From: Candidatus Pacearchaeota archaeon
GTDB taxonomy: Archaea > Nanoarchaeota > Nanoarchaeia > Pacearchaeales > GW2011-AR1
NCBI GenBank assembly: GCA_023228245.1
Contig: JALOBN010000066.1
Location: forward strand, 1-11,931
Length of the DNA stretch: 11,931 nt
Direction of reading: 5' to 3'
The translations under genes were made by a program, and so were the position numbers. The notes beneath the pieces were generated by a model. That model had not been told where the DNA came from. It was given only the letters and a program-made list of their open reading frames with translations, and made no database searches. This document shows positions 2,708 to 11,459 of the stretch, in pieces; the stretch's first letter is position 1; the number at the start of each line of letters is the position of its first letter.

Positions 2708-5257
2708 TCAAACTTGCCTTTTCTGCCTATACCCAAACTCGTTTTCTGTCTTGTCATGAGTCCTTTCTAGGTAGTTAACGACGTTAACCAATGGTATTTT
2801 GAGCTTATTTGCCACATTTCTGGCATCTATCCAGCCATTTAGGCCATGTTCTAGAATTGCAGCATTTCTGATCAAATTGGATTCGCTGATGGGTGTTTCC
2901 ATCTCATTTTTCCCGAATTTCTGTTTTTCGTCTTGGTACAAACCACCTGTTTTTGGTACACTTGGTACACTGTTTGGTACACTATTATCACTATCTACTA
3001 ACTCATTATCTATATCTGTACCAGTTGTACCAAGCTTTTCATCGTATTTTACTTTTGATTTTTTGGTTTCATCTTTTTTACCTTCTCTCTCATTTTCGCT
3101 TGGTACGTCTGGTACACTGGTACAAGGTTCTTCTGATATCGTTTTTCTGTACCCATCGTTTGGTACGGTCTGGTTTGACATTGGTACAACATCCATCTTG
3201 ATATACCATCCTCGGGTCTTCCCGTTATTGATTCTCATCTGATATTTGGCATTTCCAGCCGCGTCATGAATTAAGAGATTTTCCCGGTCCAATGCCATTG
3301 TCATAGATTCAACAGTTGGTGTCTGTGTGAACGTCTTTATTTTACTCAATTCGTTCAAAGTCTGCAAAGGAAGCACGCAAATGCCATTATCCATCCACTT
3401 GCCTATTACATTTCCGAGAACCGTCTTTTTCCCTTCCTTAGACACAAAAAGACCCGGATTTCCTATCAAAAGCTCGTTTAGGCCTGCCATAAACCTAGCG
3501 GATTCCGTCTCTTCGCTCGTGGTCTCGCCTTGCTCCCTCGCCGCTTCTTCTAAAGCTTTTGCGAATTCCTTCTCCATTTCGTGAAATATCGCCCCAATGG
3601 GCGATACTTCCAGTAGTGCCCACACGCTCTTAAGCAAAGTGCAAATCGTTGCCAACCTACCGGGGTTGACATATTCCTTCTTAATGAAATCTGTCATCAG
3701 CTTGCTTTGGTAATCGCCGAATCCGGGCGCAAACTCTTGTTCTGTGGTGCCTAGGAAATTCAGCCAATTATAGCCTATTACCGGTAATAGGGTTGCATTT
3801 TCCTGCACTTCTCTTAGAAGCTTCCCATCCACGGCGACCCAATTTGTATTAAGTACCCTGGCCGAAGTTGCTGCCTCTTGTGGTTTGACCTCACCTGTGA
3901 TGATTGGTGTGGTCAGAAACTCGCGTCCTTTTCGTAGGCCGCCGTCTTTCTTGCCCCTTGCCTTTTCCTCTCCTTCTAAAATTCCCTGAATAATGCTCAC
4001 ATAATTGATAGCGTCTTTGGGATCGGCGGCCTTGACGTTATCAAATATTTGTGGCAATATGCCTGCCGCTGCGAAAATCTCCATCGCTCCCACCGCAGTT
4101 GACCCACTCTTTCCAGACTTTAGCTTAGGGTCATCGATATAATTTACTCCATAAATACACATTGCTGCAGTTGCCGTGCTGGTCTTGAACGTGCCTGTTC
4201 CGCCCCATATCCCAAACCCGAACCGTTTTGTCTTGTGTTCCTTCGCGATGATCGGTGCGCCTAAGATCGTGGCTACCAAGAGAGGAGCATACTTATGGAC
4301 CTTCATCAGACATTTGAGCACCTTAAGAGCTTTTTTTAGATCACCATCGTAAACGCACGCGGGTATCTGATCTGCCAATTTATATTCTACATTTTCCATT
4401 AATTCCACGCCTGGAACCAACGGTATTTTCCCTTCCCACCTCGGAACCGCAATGCGTTTCATCTTCTTTGTGTTTAGGGTAATTCTTTGCACTATATCGA
4501 ATGTGAGCTTGCCCACCCGGTTCTTGGCTCCAAACGCATTGATGAGGGCCGCTTCAAATTTCTCATCTACTGCCATATCTCTTGCAGACTGTTTGAAGCA
4601 CACTTCTCTATTATCCTTCGCACCTTTACCTTTAAAAGTGAATTCCGTTTCATCATCTGCAATGGTCTCAGTCGCGATGTAAACCGGGCAATCTGACACC
4701 CATGCCAATGTAAGACCCGGTGGTTCACCGTCTTTTGGTTTGGTTTCGACCAATTGCGCTACAATGCCTTCTTTCGTCACGCCGATTGAGAATGGTGCAC
4801 TATCGGCACTTACCGTTTTCAGCTTTGGCCCTTCCCGTGGCGGCTTGTAGAACTCTTTTGCGTTCTTCAGTGCGTTTTTTATTGTCCTGTCTCTATAGTC
4901 AGCTCTGTCTATCCACTTGTCCCGCTTCCCTAGCATGGAAGCTGAAAAGAGTCTTTCCATTTGCGTGGCATTTCCACCGGTCCAAAAGGCAAGCTTATTC
5001 ATCAAAGCCATATCTGCCGCCGACGGGTCTGGTTTGCCGTTCTTGTCGGTATATCCCAACAACGATCCTTTCCACAGATCTTCGAATTTTCTTCCGTCCT
5101 TTGCCAACAATGCCTTTTGAATAATGGCCTTGTCCGACATATTGTTCTTTGCGGGCTCGGACGTGCTTCTTGGTTCTTTTGCGTCCTCGATTTCTTCAGC
5201 AAAAATCTCTTCAAATAACGCATCCAATGCTTCTTGCCGAGGCTCGATGGTCTTCAT
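2708..5257 (-). CDS. DUF927-type superfamily 3-like replicative helicase, C-terminal half of a split primase-helicase, 849 aa
   Basis: Probable ATP-driven replicative helicase of the element. Residues 2-13 (KTIEPRQEALDAL) match the linker that follows the prim-pol domain in one-chain relatives. About 40-135 is a helical-bundle primase C-terminal region, then a DUF927-like ATPase core with Walker A GGTGTFKT (352-359) and Walker B-like LPQIFDN (401-407). Residues about 710-790 are a disordered Pro/Val/Thr linker, and the last 55 or so residues look like a winged helix. The start at 5257 forms an ATGA overlap with the prim-pol gene, with GGGG 7 nt upstream; a TTG at 5293 is less likely. The linker DNA holds the GGTAC repeats listed separately. 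DUF927 membership is recognised from sequence style and motifs. Confidence 0.9.
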   Translation of the reverse strand: MKTIEPRQEALDALFEEIFAEEIEDAKEPRSTSEPAKNNMSDKAIIQKALLAKDGRKFEDLWKGSLLGYTDKNGKPDPSAADMALMNKLAFWTGGNATQMERLFSASMLGKRDKWIDRADYRDRTIKNALKNAKEFYKPPREGPKLKTVSADSAPFSIGVTKEGIVAQLVETKPKDGEPPGLTLAWVSDCPVYIATETIADDETEFTFKGKGAKDNREVCFKQSARDMAVDEKFEAALINAFGAKNRVGKLTFDIVQRITLNTKKMKRIAVPRWEGKIPLVPGVELMENVEYKLADQIPACVYDGDLKKALKVLKCLMKVHKYAPLLVATILGAPIIAKEHKTKRFGFGIWGGTGTFKTSTATAAMCIYGVNYIDDPKLKSGKSGSTAVGAMEIFAAAGILPQIFDNVKAADPKDAINYVSIIQGILEGEEKARGKKDGGLRKGREFLTTPIITGEVKPQEAATSARVLNTNWVAVDGKLLREVQENATLLPVIGYNWLNFLGTTEQEFAPGFGDYQSKLMTDFIKKEYVNPGRLATICTLLKSVWALLEVSPIGAIFHEMEKEFAKALEEAAREQGETTSEETESARFMAGLNELLIGNPGLFVSKEGKKTVLGNVIGKWMDNGICVLPLQTLNELSKIKTFTQTPTVESMTMALDRENLLIHDAAGNAKYQMRINNGKTRGWYIKMDVVPMSNQTVPNDGYRKTISEEPCTSVPDVPSENEREGKKDETKKSKVKYDEKLGTTGTDIDNELVDSDNSVPNSVPSVPKTGGLYQDEKQKFGKNEMETPISESNLIRNAAILEHGLNGWIDARNVANKLKIPLVNVVNYLERTHDKTENEFGYRQKRQV
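2935..3187. repeat. Cluster of TTGGTACA elements, candidate replication iterons
   Basis: GGTAC begins on the + strand at 2935, 2955, 2964, 2976, 3102, 3111, 3119, 3162 and 3183, and in reverse (GTACC) at 3018, 3027 and 3149: 12 copies in 253 bp. About 0.5 is the chance expectation, and I see only about a dozen in the rest of the window. Flanks often extend to TTGGTACAC. Because the element is read as Val-Pro, Gly-Thr, Cys-Thr and Gly-Tyr at different places, the protein does not explain it. Many initiator genes carry origin iterons within or beside the gene; that role is inferred here. Confidence 0.6.
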
Positions 5258-5721
5258 ACCAGATCCCCGGTTAGGTAGCATGGCCGCAGGCAATCATAAA
5301 TCTCATAAGGATTCCCGTGTTTCCGACATCTCCTGATAGGCTTTCGTCCTTTTACGAGTATGTGGATACCGTTGCCGCTCTGCGATCTTTCGGTGTACGA
5401 ATTGAATTTTTTAATAACCTCTTCTGCCCACGATTCTATTTTACTATCTTTTATACAATCATCTATATCTATGAATATTATGTCTCCCGGTATGATGGGC
5501 ATCATCCAGCAAATGCCATCAAATCCTCCCACGTCCTGATAGACTGTCATTGCCGTACTCAATTTATACCAGGTGGTAGGATCATTTGACCGGGCACGTT
5601 TCCCGTTGGGCTGGTAAGGAACCTTGCCGATTTTGCCGTCCTTTTTGGGTTCTTTTTTCCACAAAACCCACTGTTTGGAGCCTTGAATCTCTTCAGGTAG
5701 ATTCTCGGGAAAGAATTTCAT
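5254..5721 (-). CDS. Primase-polymerase (prim-pol) domain, N-terminal half of a split primase-helicase, 155 aa
   Basis: This is the archaeo-eukaryotic prim-pol domain found at the N-terminus of phage and plasmid primase-helicases (NrS-1 polymerase-like): it should make primers or DNA at the element's origin. Seen motifs: PEEIQGSKQWVLWK at the N-terminus, KVPYQPNG, the metal-binding FIDIDDC (D85, D87), SGNGIHILVKG with catalytic H120, and YEIYDCLRPCYLTG (E140). The chain stops at YLTGDLV, exactly where relatives run on into the helicase linker, and the helicase gene restarts in the -1 frame at the ATGA overlap. The start is supported by GAGG with an 8-nt spacer and lies 10 nt after the nuclease gene. 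It is complete for the catalytic motifs. Confidence 0.88.
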   Translation of the reverse strand: MKFFPENLPEEIQGSKQWVLWKKEPKKDGKIGKVPYQPNGKRARSNDPTTWYKLSTAMTVYQDVGGFDGICWMMPIIPGDIIFIDIDDCIKDSKIESWAEEVIKKFNSYTERSQSGNGIHILVKGRKPIRRCRKHGNPYEIYDCLRPCYLTGDLV

Positions 5722-5731
5722 TTCCCATCCC

Positions 5732-6478
5732 TCAAAAGTCGAATAGCGATTTCACTTTTCGATCGCCATGCAAGATATCAATCAGATCGTCTATACATCT
5801 ACCAGCATTTGCGTAAATTTCCGTGCCCGTGAATCTTATTACTTTCCATCCAAGTGCTTGTAATATACGTTCTCTTTGTGCGTCGTGTGTCCTCTGCTCA
5901 CGGCTTGAATGAAATTCATGCCCGTCAATTTCGATCGCAATTTTATCAGACACCACAGCGAAGTCTAATCTAAAATTTCCATTTTCTGTATAGACCCACC
6001 ACTGCGGTCGCAGGACCATTCCTCTGGAAATTGCCGCGTCTAGGAATCTCTTTTCGATCGGAGATTCGCATTTGGTAGATGCCCATTGCTTATATTTTTC
6101 TTTCATTCTGGTATCATGATATTCTTCTTCAGAGCATGGCACTGGAATACGAATCCAAGGGCGCAAAGGGAATCCGGTCGCCATTCCAAACCCGCGTTCC
6201 CAACTTTCTTCTTGATATCCGGGAGACGGATATTGCCCGCGATGGTCTTGGTATTTTTTTGGTATGTTCTCATAGAAATACCTACCAACTATCTTAAAAA
6301 TGCCATTTTCGGTGCGTTGGATCAAAATAATTGGCTCTTCACACGTGTTCATTATCAATTCTATCTCATCTGGAACATTCTTAATGAATGATCCGAGCAT
6401 GTAATAGCCAAAGCATTGATATTTAGGACTAAATGCTCTTTCGGCTCTTCTGGTTTCACCTGCGGGCCATTTCTTCAT
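5732..6478 (-). CDS. DUF559/Vsr-like PD-(D/E)XK endonuclease with novel N-terminal region, 248 aa
   Basis: The C-terminal half (about 137-235) matches the DUF559 family, relatives of the Vsr mismatch nuclease. SPIEKRFLDAA carries E142, FRLDFAVV carries D172, IAIEIDGHEFH carries E183 and D185, and the family's H..R.. helix follows (THDAQRERILQALGW), then KVIRF. These residues fit a metal-dependent nuclease. The first 135 residues contain an IILIQRTENGIFKIVGRYF strand pair and are not recognised; they may bind DNA or a partner. ATG 6478 overlaps the upstream stop (ATGA) and has GAGGTG with a 6-nt spacer; a TTG at 6496 is rejected. It lies directly before prim-pol, suggesting a role in replication or intermediate processing; host-DNA degradation or defence is also possible. 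Confidence 0.82.
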   Translation of the reverse strand: MKKWPAGETRRAERAFSPKYQCFGYYMLGSFIKNVPDEIELIMNTCEEPIILIQRTENGIFKIVGRYFYENIPKKYQDHRGQYPSPGYQEESWERGFGMATGFPLRPWIRIPVPCSEEEYHDTRMKEKYKQWASTKCESPIEKRFLDAAISRGMVLRPQWWVYTENGNFRLDFAVVSDKIAIEIDGHEFHSSREQRTHDAQRERILQALGWKVIRFTGTEIYANAGRCIDDLIDILHGDRKVKSLFDF

Positions 6479-6669
6479 ATATGGCACCTCGTGCAATTGC
6501 CATCACAATACGGCGCGCCGGTCCTTTCCTCATCGCGATCTGTCACTATCTGCCTATCACACTCATAGGCAAAGCTATAAATAGAAACGTCGCTTATAGG
6601 TTCTTGCATCATATCTGACCTCGCTCGGGCCATCCCATTGGTCCGATCTTCCTTCTTTTCTGTATTCAT
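6475..6669 (-). CDS. Hypothetical small Cys-rich protein, 64 aa
   Basis: Not recognised. The N-terminal half is polar and probably disordered. The C-terminus has a tight Cys cluster, YCDGNCTRCHI (C55, C59, C62, H63) with C37 upstream, a possible one-zinc site. The start ATG at 6669 forms an ATGA overlap with the RHH-like gene, and its own stop forms an ATGA overlap with the nuclease gene, so the three are probably translated in series. The upstream ribosome binding site is weak, as expected for coupled translation. An in-frame TTG at 6705 would overlap the RHH gene by 40 nt and is less likely. It may be an accessory factor of the nuclease or primase. Confidence 0.65.
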   Translation of the reverse strand: MNTEKKEDRTNGMARARSDMMQEPISDVSIYSFAYECDRQIVTDRDEERTGAPYCDGNCTRCHI

Positions 6670-6944: not shown

Positions 6945-7097
6945 TCATGCTACCGGGTCACTGGTAGCATCCTTTTCTGTCGCGAATGTCACATCCACGA
7001 CATCCCCGACCGTTACCTTCAACTTTCGCCTTACCTCTTCTGGTATGGTTATCCTTCCACCCGCTATTATTTTTAGCGGCATGTAATATTCTTTCAT
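6945..7097 (-). CDS. AbrB/SpoVT-type swapped-hairpin DNA-binding regulator, 50 aa
   Basis: Residues 7-42 are a typical AbrB/MazE-like domain: PLKIIAGGRITIPEEVRRKL followed by VTVGDVVDVTF. GRITIPEEVR is the hallmark loop-helix of the family, which binds DNA as a domain-swapped dimer. The start is chosen as ATG 7097 because a TATAAATA box is centred 27 nt upstream, predicting a leaderless message beginning at that codon. A longer frame reaching 7187 would run through this promoter and is rejected. It faces the + operon across an 88-bp divergent gap and most likely controls both directions and itself (inference). It may also be the antitoxin type of AbrB, but no toxin neighbour is seen. Confidence 0.88.
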   Translation of the reverse strand: MKEYYMPLKIIAGGRITIPEEVRRKLKVTVGDVVDVTFATEKDATSDPVA

Positions 7098-7120
7098 GTG
7101 GGTTGTTATGAATCGCTTAG

Positions 7121-7128
7121 TATTTATA
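7121..7128 (-). promoter_or_regulatory. TATA box TATAAATA, leaderless promoter of abrB-like gene
   Basis: TATAAATA on the - strand, centred about 27 nt before ATG 7097. The palindrome ATACGTAT (7126-7133) overlaps its edge and GTATC/GATAC arms lie at 7130-7134 and 7149-7153, possible operator half-sites for the regulator. Confidence 0.65.
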
Positions 7129-7154
7129 CGTATCGCACCGGGCACATAGATACA

Positions 7155-7162
7155 TTTAAATA
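7155..7162 (+). promoter_or_regulatory. TATA box TTTAAATA, leaderless promoter of the ibrA/ibrB-like operon
   Basis: TTTAAATA is centred about 27 nt before ATG 7186, predicting transcription from the start codon itself. No ribosome binding site precedes that ATG, while every downstream gene of the operon has one, which fits a leaderless first gene. Confidence 0.68.
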
Positions 7163-7185
7163 CATTGACCATCCTATAAGCTACC

Positions 7186-7563
7186 ATGAAAAGAGTCTTC
7201 TATCCTTATCATCTTTGGGAGGAGTATAAAGCAGGGATGTGGCGAATAGTACCAAGCAATGAAAGATTCAACTTCGCCAAACAAGCCGCAGGATTAATGT
7301 CAGAACCGCAAACCTTCAAAGAATGTATGCAAAAGGCAGTTCACGATTGGCCTATCTCATGTGAAATGAACCTTTCCGCCAAATGCATGAATAGGAGAGC
7401 ATGGCTAGGTCATGCCGGATGCTGCATAGGAGTGGGATCGCCAGAGGAAGCGACTAGAGAAGGCTGGCACATGCTGACAGAAGAAGAGCAAACCGACGCC
7501 AATCGAGTTGCGGATGAGGTAATAGCAGAATGGGAGGCCACATATGCCAAAAAGATATCTTGA
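7186..7563 (+). CDS. Conserved-looking protein of unknown function, partner of IbrA/IbrB-like genes, 125 aa
   Basis: First gene of the + operon, with a predicted leaderless start. The N-terminus MKRVFYPYHLWEEYKAGMWR is rich in aromatic residues. A central helix (QTFKECMQKAVHDWP) is followed by MNLSAKCMNRRAWLGHAGCC (61-80), and the C-terminal part (86-121) is helical with REGWHMLTEEEQTDANRVADE. The Asn-Arg-Arg-Ala-Trp-Leu-Gly-His-Ala block with four nearby Cys looks like a conserved functional site. From memory, proteins of this size and pattern occur beside PAPS-reductase-like genes in bacterial phages; I cannot verify that here and know no function. It overlaps the next gene by 20 nt, and GGGAGG in its last codons is that gene's ribosome binding site. 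Confidence 0.8.
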   Translation: MKRVFYPYHLWEEYKAGMWRIVPSNERFNFAKQAAGLMSEPQTFKECMQKAVHDWPISCEMNLSAKCMNRRAWLGHAGCCIGVGSPEEATREGWHMLTEEEQTDANRVADEVIAEWEATYAKKIS

Positions 7564-8767
7564 GAAGGATGTTCTAACCGCTGCCCGCGAACGAGTAGCA
7601 TTTGCCTTCGATAATTTTGATAAGGTTTGCGTGTCTTATTCGGGCGGCAAGGATAGTACTGTAATGCTTCATCTGACTATGGACGAGGCTCTTAAGAGGG
7701 ATGTTAAGGTATCGGTCTTGTTTATTGATCTGGAAGGCCAATACAAGCTCACGATAGATCATATACATGAATGCTTAGATAAGTATGCTGACCACATAGA
7801 GCTTTATTGGGTTTGCCTTCCGATCCTTCTCAGAAATGCCGTATCTGTCTATCAACCTAGATGGCTCTGTTGGGACAAAGAGTGCGAAGATGCATGGGTC
7901 AGGGATGCCCCGGCGCAAGGAATATTCGATGAGGTATATTTTCCATTTTTCGAACGAGGAATGGAATTTGAAGAGTTTGTACCTGAATTTTCTGAGTGGT
8001 TAGCAGACGGCAAGAAATTAGCTCAACTGGTAGGAATCCGAGCAAACGAGAGTCTTAATAGGTTTAGGACCATTGCCAGTGCATCCAAGATTCGCTACGA
8101 TAATCAGCAATTCACGACAAAAGTATCTGAAAACGTCTATAATATCTATCCTATCTATGATTGGAGGACAGAAGACATTTGGACGTATCACGGTAAGAAT
8201 CCAGATAAATGCTACAACGAGCTTTATAATCGGATGCATTTGGCGGGATTGAGTATTCACCAACAGCGGATTTGCCAACCATACGGCGATGACCAAAGAC
8301 GCGGCCTGTGGCTATTCCACCTAATCGAGCCTGAAACGTGGGCAAGAATCGTGGCCAGGGTCAACGGCGCAAATGGTGGCGCGATGTATATCCAAGAATG
8401 GGGAAACGTAAATGGATATAGACGGATTACAAAGCCGCCTGCCTGTCCTACTTGGAAGAGTTTTGCAAAGTTGTTAGCCGAATCCATGCCGCCATCTATG
8501 AAAGAACACTACCTTAATAAAATATTCTTGTTTGAAAAATGGTGGAAGCCGAAAGGATATGAAGACGGCATACCCGATGAAGCTCCATATGATCTAGAAG
8601 CAAAAAGAAAAGTCCCTAGCTGGAGAAGAGTTTGTAAGAGTCTATTAAGAAATGATTATTGGTGCAAAGGAATTGGATTTAGTCAACAAAAAAGTAGCGC
8701 TTATCTGGCATATCTGGAAAGAACGAAAAAGAAGAGACTGGATTGTGGTTTTAGTTTGGAGAGATGA
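7544..8767 (+). CDS. IbrA-like PP-loop ATPase, PAPS-reductase family with DUF3440, 407 aa
   Basis: An ATP pyrophosphatase-fold enzyme of the PAPS reductase/DndC-like superfamily. The PP-loop SGGKDST is at 33-39, followed by a strand with VLFIDLEGQY (58-67). The family's second conserved block is LVGIRANESLNRFRTI (162-177) and YPIYDWRTEDIWTYH is at 202-216. Residues about 280-395 match the DUF3440 tail of IbrA. Family enzymes activate a substrate with ATP, often for sulfur transfer or reduction; IbrA/IbrB of E. coli affect eib gene expression, but their chemistry is not known to me. Cys pairs at 109/114, 364/374 and others are candidates for catalysis or metal. The next gene is the matching IbrB-like partner. 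GGGAGG 7 nt upstream supports the start. Confidence 0.92.
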   Translation: MPKRYLEKDVLTAARERVAFAFDNFDKVCVSYSGGKDSTVMLHLTMDEALKRDVKVSVLFIDLEGQYKLTIDHIHECLDKYADHIELYWVCLPILLRNAVSVYQPRWLCWDKECEDAWVRDAPAQGIFDEVYFPFFERGMEFEEFVPEFSEWLADGKKLAQLVGIRANESLNRFRTIASASKIRYDNQQFTTKVSENVYNIYPIYDWRTEDIWTYHGKNPDKCYNELYNRMHLAGLSIHQQRICQPYGDDQRRGLWLFHLIEPETWARIVARVNGANGGAMYIQEWGNVNGYRRITKPPACPTWKSFAKLLAESMPPSMKEHYLNKIFLFEKWWKPKGYEDGIPDEAPYDLEAKRKVPSWRRVCKSLLRNDYWCKGIGFSQQKSSAYLAYLERTKKKRLDCGFSLER

Positions 8768-8769
8768 TT

Positions 8770-9444
8770 ATGGAAGAAGCCTGGTACAAAGAACAAATTG
8801 ATAAAATCGCGTTCGAACTGGCTAAAGAAAACGACTTAGACATTAAAATCGATATGCTAAACAAAATCAGATTCGCGCTACATGAAGTCAGTCCGCTTAA
8901 ATCCGAACCAGTCGACTTTGTGATGTGGACAAAGGCAGATAATGTAATCGCAAACGATTACAACCCAAATAATGTAGCGCCTCCTGAAATGGAATTGCTC
9001 CGCCTATCTATCGGGCACGATGGTTATACTCAGCCGTGTGTTTGCTGGCAGAAGGATAACATAATCGAGGTAGTGGATGGTTTTCATCGGACCAAAGTTT
9101 GTCGAGAGTTCAAGGATGTCCGTGACCGGGTACACGGCTATTTACCAGTCACGATTATCAAAGACGATTGTACCGGAAGGAGCGATAGAATAGCCTCTAC
9201 AATTCGTCATAACCGTGCCAGAGGCAAGCACGCTGTAACCGGCATGTCTGATATAGTCTTAGAGCTAAAGAGGCGTAATTGGTCAGACGAGAAGATCGGG
9301 AAGGAACTTGGAATGGATCCGGATGAATGTCTAAGATTGACTCAAATTACCGGACTGGCTGAAATGTTCAAGGATCGCGAATTCAGCAAAGCATGGGAAG
9401 CTGTTATAGATGGCGAAATGCCCGTCGAGGTCATTGATGGATAA
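8770..9444 (+). CDS. IbrB-like ParB/Srx-fold protein, 224 aa
   Basis: Residues about 50-155 form a ParB N-terminal-like domain: WTKADNVIANDYNPNNVAPP (the ParB box I region), LSIGHDGYTQPCVCW, then VVDGFHRTKV (VDGFHR at 102-107, the GEHR-type nucleotide site) and STIRHNRARGKH (143-154). Such domains can bind or hydrolyse CTP or ATP. Residues 171-196 (WSDEKIGKELGMDPDECLRL) are a probable helix-turn-helix. The pairing with the IbrA-like gene is diagnostic for IbrB. Start choice: ATG 8764 overlaps the upstream stop in ATGA but lies only 2 nt after GGAG; ATG 8770 has an 8-nt spacer and is preferred. It may give the PP-loop enzyme its DNA or target specificity (inference). Confidence 0.9.
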   Translation: MEEAWYKEQIDKIAFELAKENDLDIKIDMLNKIRFALHEVSPLKSEPVDFVMWTKADNVIANDYNPNNVAPPEMELLRLSIGHDGYTQPCVCWQKDNIIEVVDGFHRTKVCREFKDVRDRVHGYLPVTIIKDDCTGRSDRIASTIRHNRARGKHAVTGMSDIVLELKRRNWSDEKIGKELGMDPDECLRLTQITGLAEMFKDREFSKAWEAVIDGEMPVEVIDG

Positions 9445-9646
9445 AGACACGAATTGTCGAAAATGTGGTAAACCATGTTCACGAAATATGACCGTGCTTG
9501 GTATCGGTCCTGTTTGTTATTCGTGCCTGCAATCCCACCAAGATAAATCTTTTTGGGAAAAGCTGCATGGTAGAATTGATAAACGAGTAAAAGTTATAAG
9601 AAACGCTAAAGAAAATCCTAATCAGAGGACTCTAAATGACTTATAG
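9437..9646 (+). CDS. Small zinc-ribbon protein, DUF6011-like, 69 aa
   Basis: The N-terminal CRKCGKPCSRNMTVLGIGPVC segment with a following CYSC-type pair (C7, C10, C14, C27, C30) and the GIGPVC signature resemble the DUF6011 zinc-binding module seen in many phage proteins; the match is by eye. The rest is a basic tail (KLHGRIDKRVKVIRNAKENPNQRTLNDL) that could touch nucleic acid. ATG 9437 is chosen because GAGG lies 6 nt upstream and because it overlaps the IbrB stop by 8 nt; the earlier ATG at 9410 lies deep in that gene without a ribosome binding site. Its stop overlaps the nuclease gene by 11 nt, so it is part of the coupled operon. Confidence 0.75.
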   Translation: MDKDTNCRKCGKPCSRNMTVLGIGPVCYSCLQSHQDKSFWEKLHGRIDKRVKVIRNAKENPNQRTLNDL

Positions 9647-10316
9647 CCTTCCAAATGTGATATCTACGTCTCAGATAAATACGTATCGCCACTGCCCACG
9701 CAAATATTTTTTGCAATATGTCTTGAAGATCAAAACTGATACCAAGTCTGAAGCATTGGAGGCAGGCAGTCGGGTACATGCAAGCATATCTAGTAGAATA
9801 TTTAAATCGGATATTCCGATCGAACACCTGATGCTAACCAGAGCAAAAGCAATCCTTGATATGTATCCACCCAATCCGATACTAGAGACAACATACGAAG
9901 ATCCTAATAATCCTGGTAGATTTCACGGGAACGTGCTTGGCGAACGTGCAATAGGCATTTTTGATTTCCATTGGTCCGATATTCCCTGCGCAGGCGATTG
10001 GAAAACCGGTAAGTTTGATCCAAGGTACACGGAAAGTTATGAGGTGCAAGCATATATATTGAATGAATTGTATAAAGAAAAATACAATAGATCACTCACC
10101 GGATTCTCGTTTGAGTTTCTGAAATTCGGCAAGATCTATAATGCAACCTGCCTTTCAGGGTCAGAGAAACGAAATGAGATAGAAGAAGCACTAAAAGAAG
10201 CATTGGAAAATATCAATCTATGCAAATTCAACAAATGTAAAGGACCGCTTTGTAATTGGTGCGATTTAATTGAATATTGCAAAAAGGACTTTGGATTAGA
10301 TCTTTTTACTGTCTAA
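9636..10316 (+). CDS. Cas4/RecB-like PD-(D/E)XK nuclease with Fe-S cysteines, 226 aa
   Basis: The motifs follow the Cas4/AddB-type nuclease order. SQINTYRHCPRKYFLQY contains the first cluster cysteine C20, GSRVHASI carries H48, GIFDFHW gives the metal ligand D110, GDWKTGKF gives D121 and K123, and Q138/Y140 form the following helix. Three cysteines C206-x2-C209-x5-C215 close a predicted 4Fe-4S site. This predicts a metal-dependent exonuclease or endonuclease on DNA ends. Length is normal for a stand-alone Cas4-like protein. AGAGGA 7 nt upstream supports the start. There is no cas1 or CRISPR array here, so a viral replication/recombination, DNA-modification-linked or anti-host role is more likely. 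It is the last gene of the operon and converges on a - strand gene, overlapping by 21 nt. Confidence 0.9.
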   Translation: MTYSLPNVISTSQINTYRHCPRKYFLQYVLKIKTDTKSEALEAGSRVHASISSRIFKSDIPIEHLMLTRAKAILDMYPPNPILETTYEDPNNPGRFHGNVLGERAIGIFDFHWSDIPCAGDWKTGKFDPRYTESYEVQAYILNELYKEKYNRSLTGFSFEFLKFGKIYNATCLSGSEKRNEIEEALKEALENINLCKFNKCKGPLCNWCDLIEYCKKDFGLDLFTV

Positions 10317-11007: not shown

Positions 11008-11349
11008 CTAATCCCTCCAAATCTTGCTACATTTCGTAGCATCAATATCACTGCCATTGCCGCCCGACCCGCCAAACTCCTTACGTGGCCTGACACCTTT
11101 CAGCTCTACCAGCCAGTTGGCTTTCAGGTTGCCGGAGGCATCGAATAGGTCGTCTGCGAAATGCCAGACATAGCCGTCCAAAACCAACGGTGCAGCCTGC
11201 ACCCAAATGTCGGTTTCGCACAAAACACGAGCCATTACCGATGCATCCAAGGGCTTCTCTTCATATGCGATATCTGCTCGCCAGAAGGCTTCCTTTAGGA
11301 TTTTGCAGCGACTGCATTGCGGGCCGGTGGTGTAGATAGTTATCGGCAT
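11008..11349 (-). CDS. Glutaredoxin-like thiol-disulfide protein, 113 aa
   Basis: The N-terminus MPITIYTTGPQCSRCKILKE is the glutaredoxin/NrdH start: a beta strand, then the C12-S-R-C15 active site and a helix. The cis-Pro motif is visible in VQAAPLVLDG, followed by a short WHFADDLFD helix. It should reduce disulfides in the cytoplasm, perhaps for ribonucleotide reductase or a viral enzyme. Residues about 85-113 are an extra polar Gly/Ser tail with one Cys, absent from standard glutaredoxins. AAGGAG 6 nt upstream fixes ATG 11349; an in-frame ATG at 11373 would overlap the upstream gene further and lacks a site. No reductase gene is in the window. Confidence 0.85.
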   Translation of the reverse strand: MPITIYTTGPQCSRCKILKEAFWRADIAYEEKPLDASVMARVLCETDIWVQAAPLVLDGYVWHFADDLFDASGNLKANWLVELKGVRPRKEFGGSGGNGSDIDATKCSKIWRD

Positions 11350-11459
11350 GTTATCTCCTTGAAATCTTTGCATTTTTCGTTATCTTTTGGGCATACTTTC
11401 CCATCCAGTGTGCATAGTTTAGCCCAATTTGTATAATAATGGTTGATGCAATCTTTCAT
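11340..11459 (-). CDS. Cys-rich microprotein, 39 aa
   Basis: Read from ATG 11459 to TAA 11340. The start forms an ATGA overlap with the 71-aa gene, and the end overlaps the glutaredoxin-like start by 10 nt, whose ribosome binding site lies in its last codons. Cysteines at 4, 16, 23, 30 and 38, with aromatic NHYYTNW and a Lys-rich C-terminal half, suggest a small metal-binding or redox-active peptide. No family is recognised. The ribosome binding site is weak, consistent with coupled translation. Without this gene the operon would have its only gap, which supports it. Confidence 0.6.
   Translation of the reverse strand: MKDCINHYYTNWAKLCTLDGKVCPKDNEKCKDFKEITCR

Follow-up and report, generated by a model that had tools for sequence, protein, structure and literature searches.

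An 11,931-nt contig of the Candidatus Pacearchaeota assembly GCA_023228245.1 (JALOBN010000066.1; the whole contig is called the window below) carries a cluster of five overlapping plus-strand genes at 7186-10316. They encode the IbrA/IbrB pair, a 125-aa protein (p125), a small cysteine-containing protein (the Cys protein), and a Cas4-like nuclease, and the cluster sits on a virus- or plasmid-like DNA element. IbrA, IbrB, and p125 form a three-gene core in one large group of IbrA proteins, without p125 being universal among IbrAs. The linkage of the nuclease is one-way: the nuclease keeps IbrA and is optional for it. The IbrA/IbrB pair was known before, and the p125 core and the coupled nuclease are new. 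The cluster is best read as a viral module that acts early to modify or process DNA and has a nuclease coupled to it. A first-pass annotation had placed the five open reading frames (ORFs) where we also find them and had treated them as one system, but the cluster is more structured than that annotation could see.

p125 as the third member of the IbrA/IbrB core

Two sets of loci were compared. The IbrA-seeded set comprises the best 80 of 297 confirmed IbrA loci in IMG/VR and is biased toward window-like IbrAs, while the p125-seeded set comprises the best 80 of 173 p125 loci, some of its contigs being common to both. IbrB was present in all 80 IbrA-seeded loci and the p125 family in 78; in the reverse direction, all 80 p125-seeded loci contained IbrA and 78 contained IbrB. 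The p125 frame ends at most 200 nt from the start of the IbrA frame in 73 of the 80 p125-seeded loci, and according to the ORF calls p125 lies directly 5' of IbrA in every locus with an assigned family (68/68). Among annotated comparison loci with IbrA/IbrB, p125 occurs in 4 of 10 from phages and is absent from the other 6 and from all 3 from plasmids. Mycobacterium phage Nebkiss carries IbrA, IbrB, and, by hidden Markov model, p125. The viral contig L041 begins within IbrA, and p125 is possible upstream of that point.

Family scans with Pfam, NCBIfam, or PHROGs covered 11 window proteins and PADLOC covered the five operon proteins, on a contig of 11.9 kb with the host genes outside view. Within this scope, p125 stayed below the cut-offs of Pfam and NCBIfam, and PHROGs and PADLOC listed no family for it. 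It has 125 homologues at E≤0.001, and among the matches listed none of 120 contained a Pfam domain. AlphaFold2, given 35 sequences, predicts a helical bundle with high confidence (predicted local distance difference test score, 97), and this all-helical fold had no PDB match at E≤0.001. Small ORFs after p125 in two loci (L090:6829-7143 and L093:7475-7831) match part of the IbrA profile with E about 1e-10, and look as if part of IbrA existed there as a separate protein.

Conserved residues and probable chemistry of IbrA

The second gene had been described as a PP-loop/DUF3440 enzyme, and this description is borne out. The protein exceeds the curated cut-offs, far above chance, for PF11922 (DUF3440; 7e-32, 111 bits versus 25) and for PF01507, the phosphoadenosine phosphosulfate (PAPS) reductase family (PAPS_reduct; 5e-15, 56.6 bits versus 22.5). 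It also matches phrog_2302 at 4e-81 over residues 3-386, and its PP-loop is intact. Relatives were found in 216 phage records, 40 of them covering at least 80% of the query. Conservation was computed over 94 IbrA sequences, in which S33xGKDS, D62xE64, and G164xR166xxE169-S170xxR173 are invariant and no cysteine is.

This last result bears on the analogy to DndC and DNA phosphorothioation that had been drawn for the cluster, since DndC is described as carrying a cysteine dyad (PMC10853773). Because IbrA has no invariant cysteine, phosphorothioation of the Dnd type becomes less likely. The analogy is kept open by the PAPS reductase of type 4 BREX, reported to serve phosphorothioation without the dyad, with a different cysteine-rich region, so that the dyad appears dispensable in some systems (PMC12839542). 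Profile matches of IbrA to DndC (2e-8) and BrxP (4e-7) are weak, and in the PADLOC scan no Dnd or Ssp part was found among the five operon proteins beyond the DndC match. A VIA fold search returned FAD synthase and APS/PAPS reductases as tied best matches. The cysteine-independent adenylyl transferases FAD synthase and FMN adenylyltransferase are among the fold matches of IbrA, tied with APS/PAPS reductases and CysD. We favour ATP-dependent adenylation by IbrA over phosphorothioation.

IbrB and the small Cys protein

IbrB is identified by its match to the ParB-like phrog_2159 (1e-65) and by its gene, which adjoins that of IbrA with a 4-nt overlap; a Pfam scan of the protein gave no match. The motif D105-G106-x-H108-R109 is invariant in the 81 sequences over which IbrB conservation was computed, and resembles the DGQHR motif of DndB. 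By eye, the protein ends in a helix-turn-helix (HTH)-like tail. Its relatives occur in 644 plasmid records, with coverage of at least 80% in 607. The ParB-fold protein may act as a targeting subunit, as had been proposed.

The Cys gene is present as first annotated, but its start is most likely at 9437, giving 69 aa, and not at 9410, because the database entry has 69 aa and the homologue in L041 begins right after the IbrB stop. The label "zinc ribbon" follows from the CxxC...CxxC pattern, while the Pfam matches, to DUF2175 (0.034) and DUF6011 (0.048), are sub-threshold. A protein search with the 69-aa sequence returned two entries, one of them itself.

A Cas4-like nuclease that keeps IbrA

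All the PD-(D/E)XK and iron-sulfur (Fe-S) residues that had been claimed for the nuclease are present, namely H48, D110, D121-x-K123, Q138, and cysteines 20, 206, 209, and 215. The catalytic residues and the four cysteines are invariant in an alignment of 23 sequences (the window and 22 of 30 homologues) and in a second one of the window and eight locus copies, in which L122 is the same contig as L087 and L084-L086 are identical. RecB-type catalytic residues together with one N-terminal and three C-terminal cysteines are the residue pattern of Cas4. The protein matches PDDEXK_1 at 1e-12, as do all 23 aligned members, and falls below the Cas4 cut-offs (Cas_Cas4, 22.0 versus 22.7 bits; TIGR00372, 22.9 versus 65 bits); at E≤0.001, 8 of the 23 aligned relatives match Cas_Cas4. 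Neither Cas1 nor Cas2 was matched among the 11 proteins scanned on this short contig, and the window contains no direct repeats of at least 20 nt within 120 nt. Virus-encoded Cas4 homologues have been proposed, and in the case of SIRV2 reported, to lower spacer acquisition (PMC10848311). Such a role is a remote prospect for the window nuclease, whose scores fall short of the curated Cas4 models.

Only one of the 80 IbrA-seeded loci, L041, contains the nuclease, and it is also the only one with the Cys gene. A search seeded with the nuclease itself returned one relative in GTDB genomes (L083) and six in IMG/VR (L041 and L084-L088), and six of these seven lie at IbrA, directly 3' of it except in L041, which shares the window's order of IbrA, IbrB, the Cys gene, and the nuclease. 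The outlier is L088, whose nuclease is 28% identical and whose 20.4 kb contain no IbrA or IbrB. Since the nucleases of L084-L086 are identical, the independent cases come to four of five. L114 is a further case of a nuclease with IbrA, though it was found via p125 and is so biased to IbrA. The first possible start of the nuclease overlaps the end of IbrA in L083, L085, L087, and L114. Between L085 and L087 the nucleases are 62% identical versus 34% for the IbrAs, and therefore nuclease and IbrA have re-paired. On a quick tree of 95 IbrA rows, made unsure by long branches, the nuclease linkage needs four changes, at least three of them forced by starred branches.

Comparison of homologous neighbourhoods, which the first-pass annotation had put forward as a check on a single five-gene system, gives a split answer: p125 is kept with IbrA and IbrB in the seeded sets, though less consistently in the annotated phage and plasmid loci, whereas the nuclease is not, though it keeps IbrA itself. 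The idea of a single fixed five-gene system is thus only partly borne out.

Two nuclease-bearing operons each contain two different IbrA genes (L041:2-1021 and 1376-2590; L114:208-1524 and 2873-4123), the first in L114 matching DUF3440 at 1.9e-71; two IbrA copies above 100 bits were seen in 0 of 169 nuclease-negative loci, many of which are short or cut. A thymidylate-synthase-family gene in the nuclease-bearing loci L041 (7691-8314, minus strand) and L087 (4084-4800) suggests nucleotide supply or modified-nucleotide metabolism.

Type IV CRISPR genes near the nuclease-bearing form

Matches to csf1, cas11, csf2, and csf3 were found at L086:4315-6628 and L085:3337-5650 (csf2 about 1e-72). In both, the csf genes are followed by IbrB, a methyltransferase-like gene, a 267-aa gene, IbrA, and the nuclease. 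L085 additionally encodes a full PAPS-reductase-like protein after the nuclease. L084 has a RAMP match at the place of csf2 (2848-3693) along with near-identical IbrB, IbrA, and nuclease matches. Over this stretch the three contigs are nearly the same and are treated as a single case; L085 and L084 have a confirmed terminase. L085 showed a single 24-nt repeat pair and no CRISPR-like array, and the window proteins scanned (by PADLOC, the five operon proteins only) include none of csf1, cas11, csf2, or csf3. Fuxivirus of Bathyarchaeia is described as joining type IV-B CRISPR, CysH-like, and Cas4-like genes in one virus (PMC10848311). This archaeal virus and L085 both combine type IV genes with a PAPS-reductase-like protein and a nuclease of the Cas4-like kind. 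Fuxivirus differs in that the paper relates its Cas4 to that of rudiviruses, and the terms "Ibr" and "ParB" were searched for in the paper's text and not found.

Replication and recombination genes around IbrA

Relatives of the cluster lie in a replication and recombination setting. Within six genes of IbrA in the 80 loci we counted a replication initiator 24 times, the PD-(D/E)XK exonuclease phrog_298 15 times, NinG 11 times, DnaB 9 times, and the exonuclease phrog_5715 8 times, each family being named from one representative. At least one counted family was present in 50 loci and none in 30. An exonuclease or PD-(D/E)XK gene is found within six genes of IbrA in 31 of the 80 and within three genes in 25, and PD-(D/E)XK families distantly related to the window nuclease occupy positions +1 to +3 after IbrA in 20 (15 phrog_298, 5 of the L054 family). 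Named phages have the order helicase-IbrA-IbrB, and in the Microcystis phage Mwe-JY13 the order is IbrB-p125-IbrA-YqaJ, a small gene, and RecT. On the Rhodovastum plasmid L097 (1796-4567, 5959-6756) IbrA and IbrB flank a GNAT acetyltransferase gene, and a second gene of the PAPS-reductase family is close by; L083:293-688 is a GNAT gene between an IbrB fragment and IbrA.

Proposed mechanism and alternatives

Our preferred account, held tentatively and at somewhat less than even confidence, is a mobile-element operon built on a widespread IbrA/IbrB/p125 module. The PP-loop of IbrA would cleave ATP at its alpha phosphate and so activate a nucleotide or nucleic acid by adenylation, with no obligatory cysteine-borne sulfur step. 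IbrB, of the ParB/sulfiredoxin type, would recruit IbrA to DNA or nucleotide, and p125 would join the complex as a small helical subunit. The module would work early on the element's own DNA, beside replication and recombination, and the coupled Cas4-like nuclease would resect or trim the same DNA, or DNA without the mark. We infer the adenylation, the complex, its substrate, the role of the HTH-like tail, and the biological purpose; the gene content, the intact motifs, the three-gene and one-way nuclease linkages, and the setting of the relatives are computed. A bolder extension, which we consider unlikely, would see in IbrA/IbrB/p125 of bacterial and archaeal viruses a new class of complex that modifies nucleic acids by adenylation and without sulfur. 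Together with the nuclease it would serve as a weapon that modifies and cleaves the DNA of hosts or competitors, at times in combination with type IV CRISPR effectors, which are also accompanied by a PAPS-reductase-fold protein.

Several observations weigh against an adenylating module with a coupled nuclease. Five IbrA cysteines are kept in 83-87 of the 94 sequences and all five are present in the window, which would still allow a thiol role in the window's IbrA lineage. The best Foldseek match of IbrA is CysH, a sulfur enzyme, and its fold matches extend to the sulfur transferases LarE, NcsA, and TtuA; since sulfur enzymes match as well, the fold does not discriminate adenylation from sulfur chemistry. 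In the E. coli phage form p125 is missing near IbrA, the window nuclease sits behind IbrB and the Cys gene and not directly behind IbrA, and an early-region position is common for phage genes. The sole reported phenotype, the activation of Eib expression described for E. coli ibrB (Sandt 2002, cited in PMC7649339), suggests regulation.

That phenotype would suit IbrA and IbrB as regulators acting on transcription of element genes, with any chemistry secondary, and so would the HTH-like tail; the PP-loop active-site residues, invariant in 94/94 IbrAs, imply catalysis, and we regard this explanation as very unlikely. A phosphorothioation-like modification with restriction, in which IbrA would correspond to DndC or SspD and IbrB to DndB and the nuclease would attack unmodified DNA, can draw on the PAPS-reductase fold, the weak DndC and BrxP matches, the resemblance of the IbrB and DndB motifs, and the dispensable dyad. 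It appears quite improbable given the lack of an invariant cysteine and, among the five operon proteins, of further Dnd or Ssp parts, and given a nuclease absent from 79/80 IbrA loci. Since exonucleases are often near phage IbrA, a recombination exonuclease in its usual place is another possible identity of the window nuclease. IbrA, IbrB, and p125 would then have one function and merely share an early operon with the nuclease, which would serve recombination or replication of the element, as the other PD-(D/E)XK families behind IbrA and the YqaJ that follows it in the Microcystis phage would lead one to expect. The Cas4-like family, however, stays with IbrA across very different IbrA lineages, and the four overlaps of nuclease start and IbrA end look like more than a shared address, so that we find separate genes a doubtful alternative to the adenylating module.

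Comparison with described systems places the cluster further. In the E. coli phage PhiR5_2, IbrA and IbrB are 46% and 51% identical to those of the window and their genes overlap, but by hidden Markov model this phage locus and the three plasmid loci have neither p125 nor a nuclease of the window type. The Asgard virus HeimV2 is described as an archaea-assigned virus whose IbrA/IbrB are related to phage genes; the passages of PMC8813620 that form our basis of comparison mention neither p125 nor the nuclease. The Dnd, Ssp, and BREX systems share with the cluster a PAPS-reductase-fold enzyme (DndC, SspD, and BrxP) and, in Dnd, a ParB-superfamily partner, DndB; the cluster differs in that IbrA has no invariant cysteine and the five operon proteins include no further Dnd or Ssp part. 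The YqaJ-RecT and phrog_298 cassettes of phages likewise place a PD-(D/E)XK nuclease shortly behind IbrA among the early genes, whereas the window nuclease has four Fe-S-type cysteines and no adjoining recombinase was identified among the proteins scanned.

Operon layout and surroundings

Features of the operon in the window.
Feature	Coordinates	Strand	Basis
TATA-like box TTTAAATA, possible leaderless promoter	7155..7162	+	ends 23 nt before first ATG
p125, 125-aa protein with predicted all-helical fold, third member of the IbrA/IbrB core	7186..7563	+	125 homologues, locus linkage, AlphaFold2
IbrA, PP-loop/PAPS-reductase-fold protein with DUF3440	7544..8767	+	Pfam, phrog_2302, invariant residues
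IbrB, ParB/sulfiredoxin-type partner with DGxHR	8764..9444	+	phrog_2159, invariant motif
69-aa CxxC...CxxC protein, probable zinc ribbon	9437..9646	+	pattern; adjoins nuclease here and in L041
Cas4-like PD-(D/E)XK nuclease, four Fe-S-type cysteines	9636..10316	+	PDDEXK_1 match, invariant motif residues

The single leaderless promoter proposed for the five genes is plausible from the TATA-like box, but with two occurrences of the pattern TTTAWATA in the window versus 1.39 expected, its frequency is about that of chance. GGAGG/GAGG-like stretches can be read by eye upstream of the inner genes. In the window only the box and the style of the genes suggest archaea; an archaeal host of the element, as had been supposed, is plausible. 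Elsewhere, an archaeal virus would fit L087, which has a terminase and an MCM gene (1.5e-85) complete with P-loop, lid, OB, and N-terminal domains. Since the MCM family search matched every one of the 14 control genomes, among them bacteria, and gave no MCM in the records of L114, L085, and L041, this evidence speaks for L087 alone.

Upstream of the operon the minus strand holds a primase/helicase as two overlapping ORFs (2708-5721) that match consecutive parts of phrog_13901 and phrog_1829 and represent a split gene, a frameshift, or an assembly error. A DUF559/MTES_1575-type restriction-endonuclease-like gene follows (5732-6496), and an AbrB-like gene (6945-7187) lies between it and the operon. 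A glutaredoxin-like small protein, below the Pfam cut-off, is encoded on the minus strand at 11008-11373. Of the window proteins scanned, none was identified as a capsid protein or a terminase.

Significance

In the literature found, a partial survey, IbrA and IbrB appear in annotation-level or phylogenetic mentions and in the one cited regulatory phenotype. With a fixed third protein and a coupled nuclease, this vague "regulator pair" becomes a small defined complex open to purification and testing, and the link to type IV CRISPR gives a second handle on why PAPS-reductase-fold proteins accompany type IV systems.

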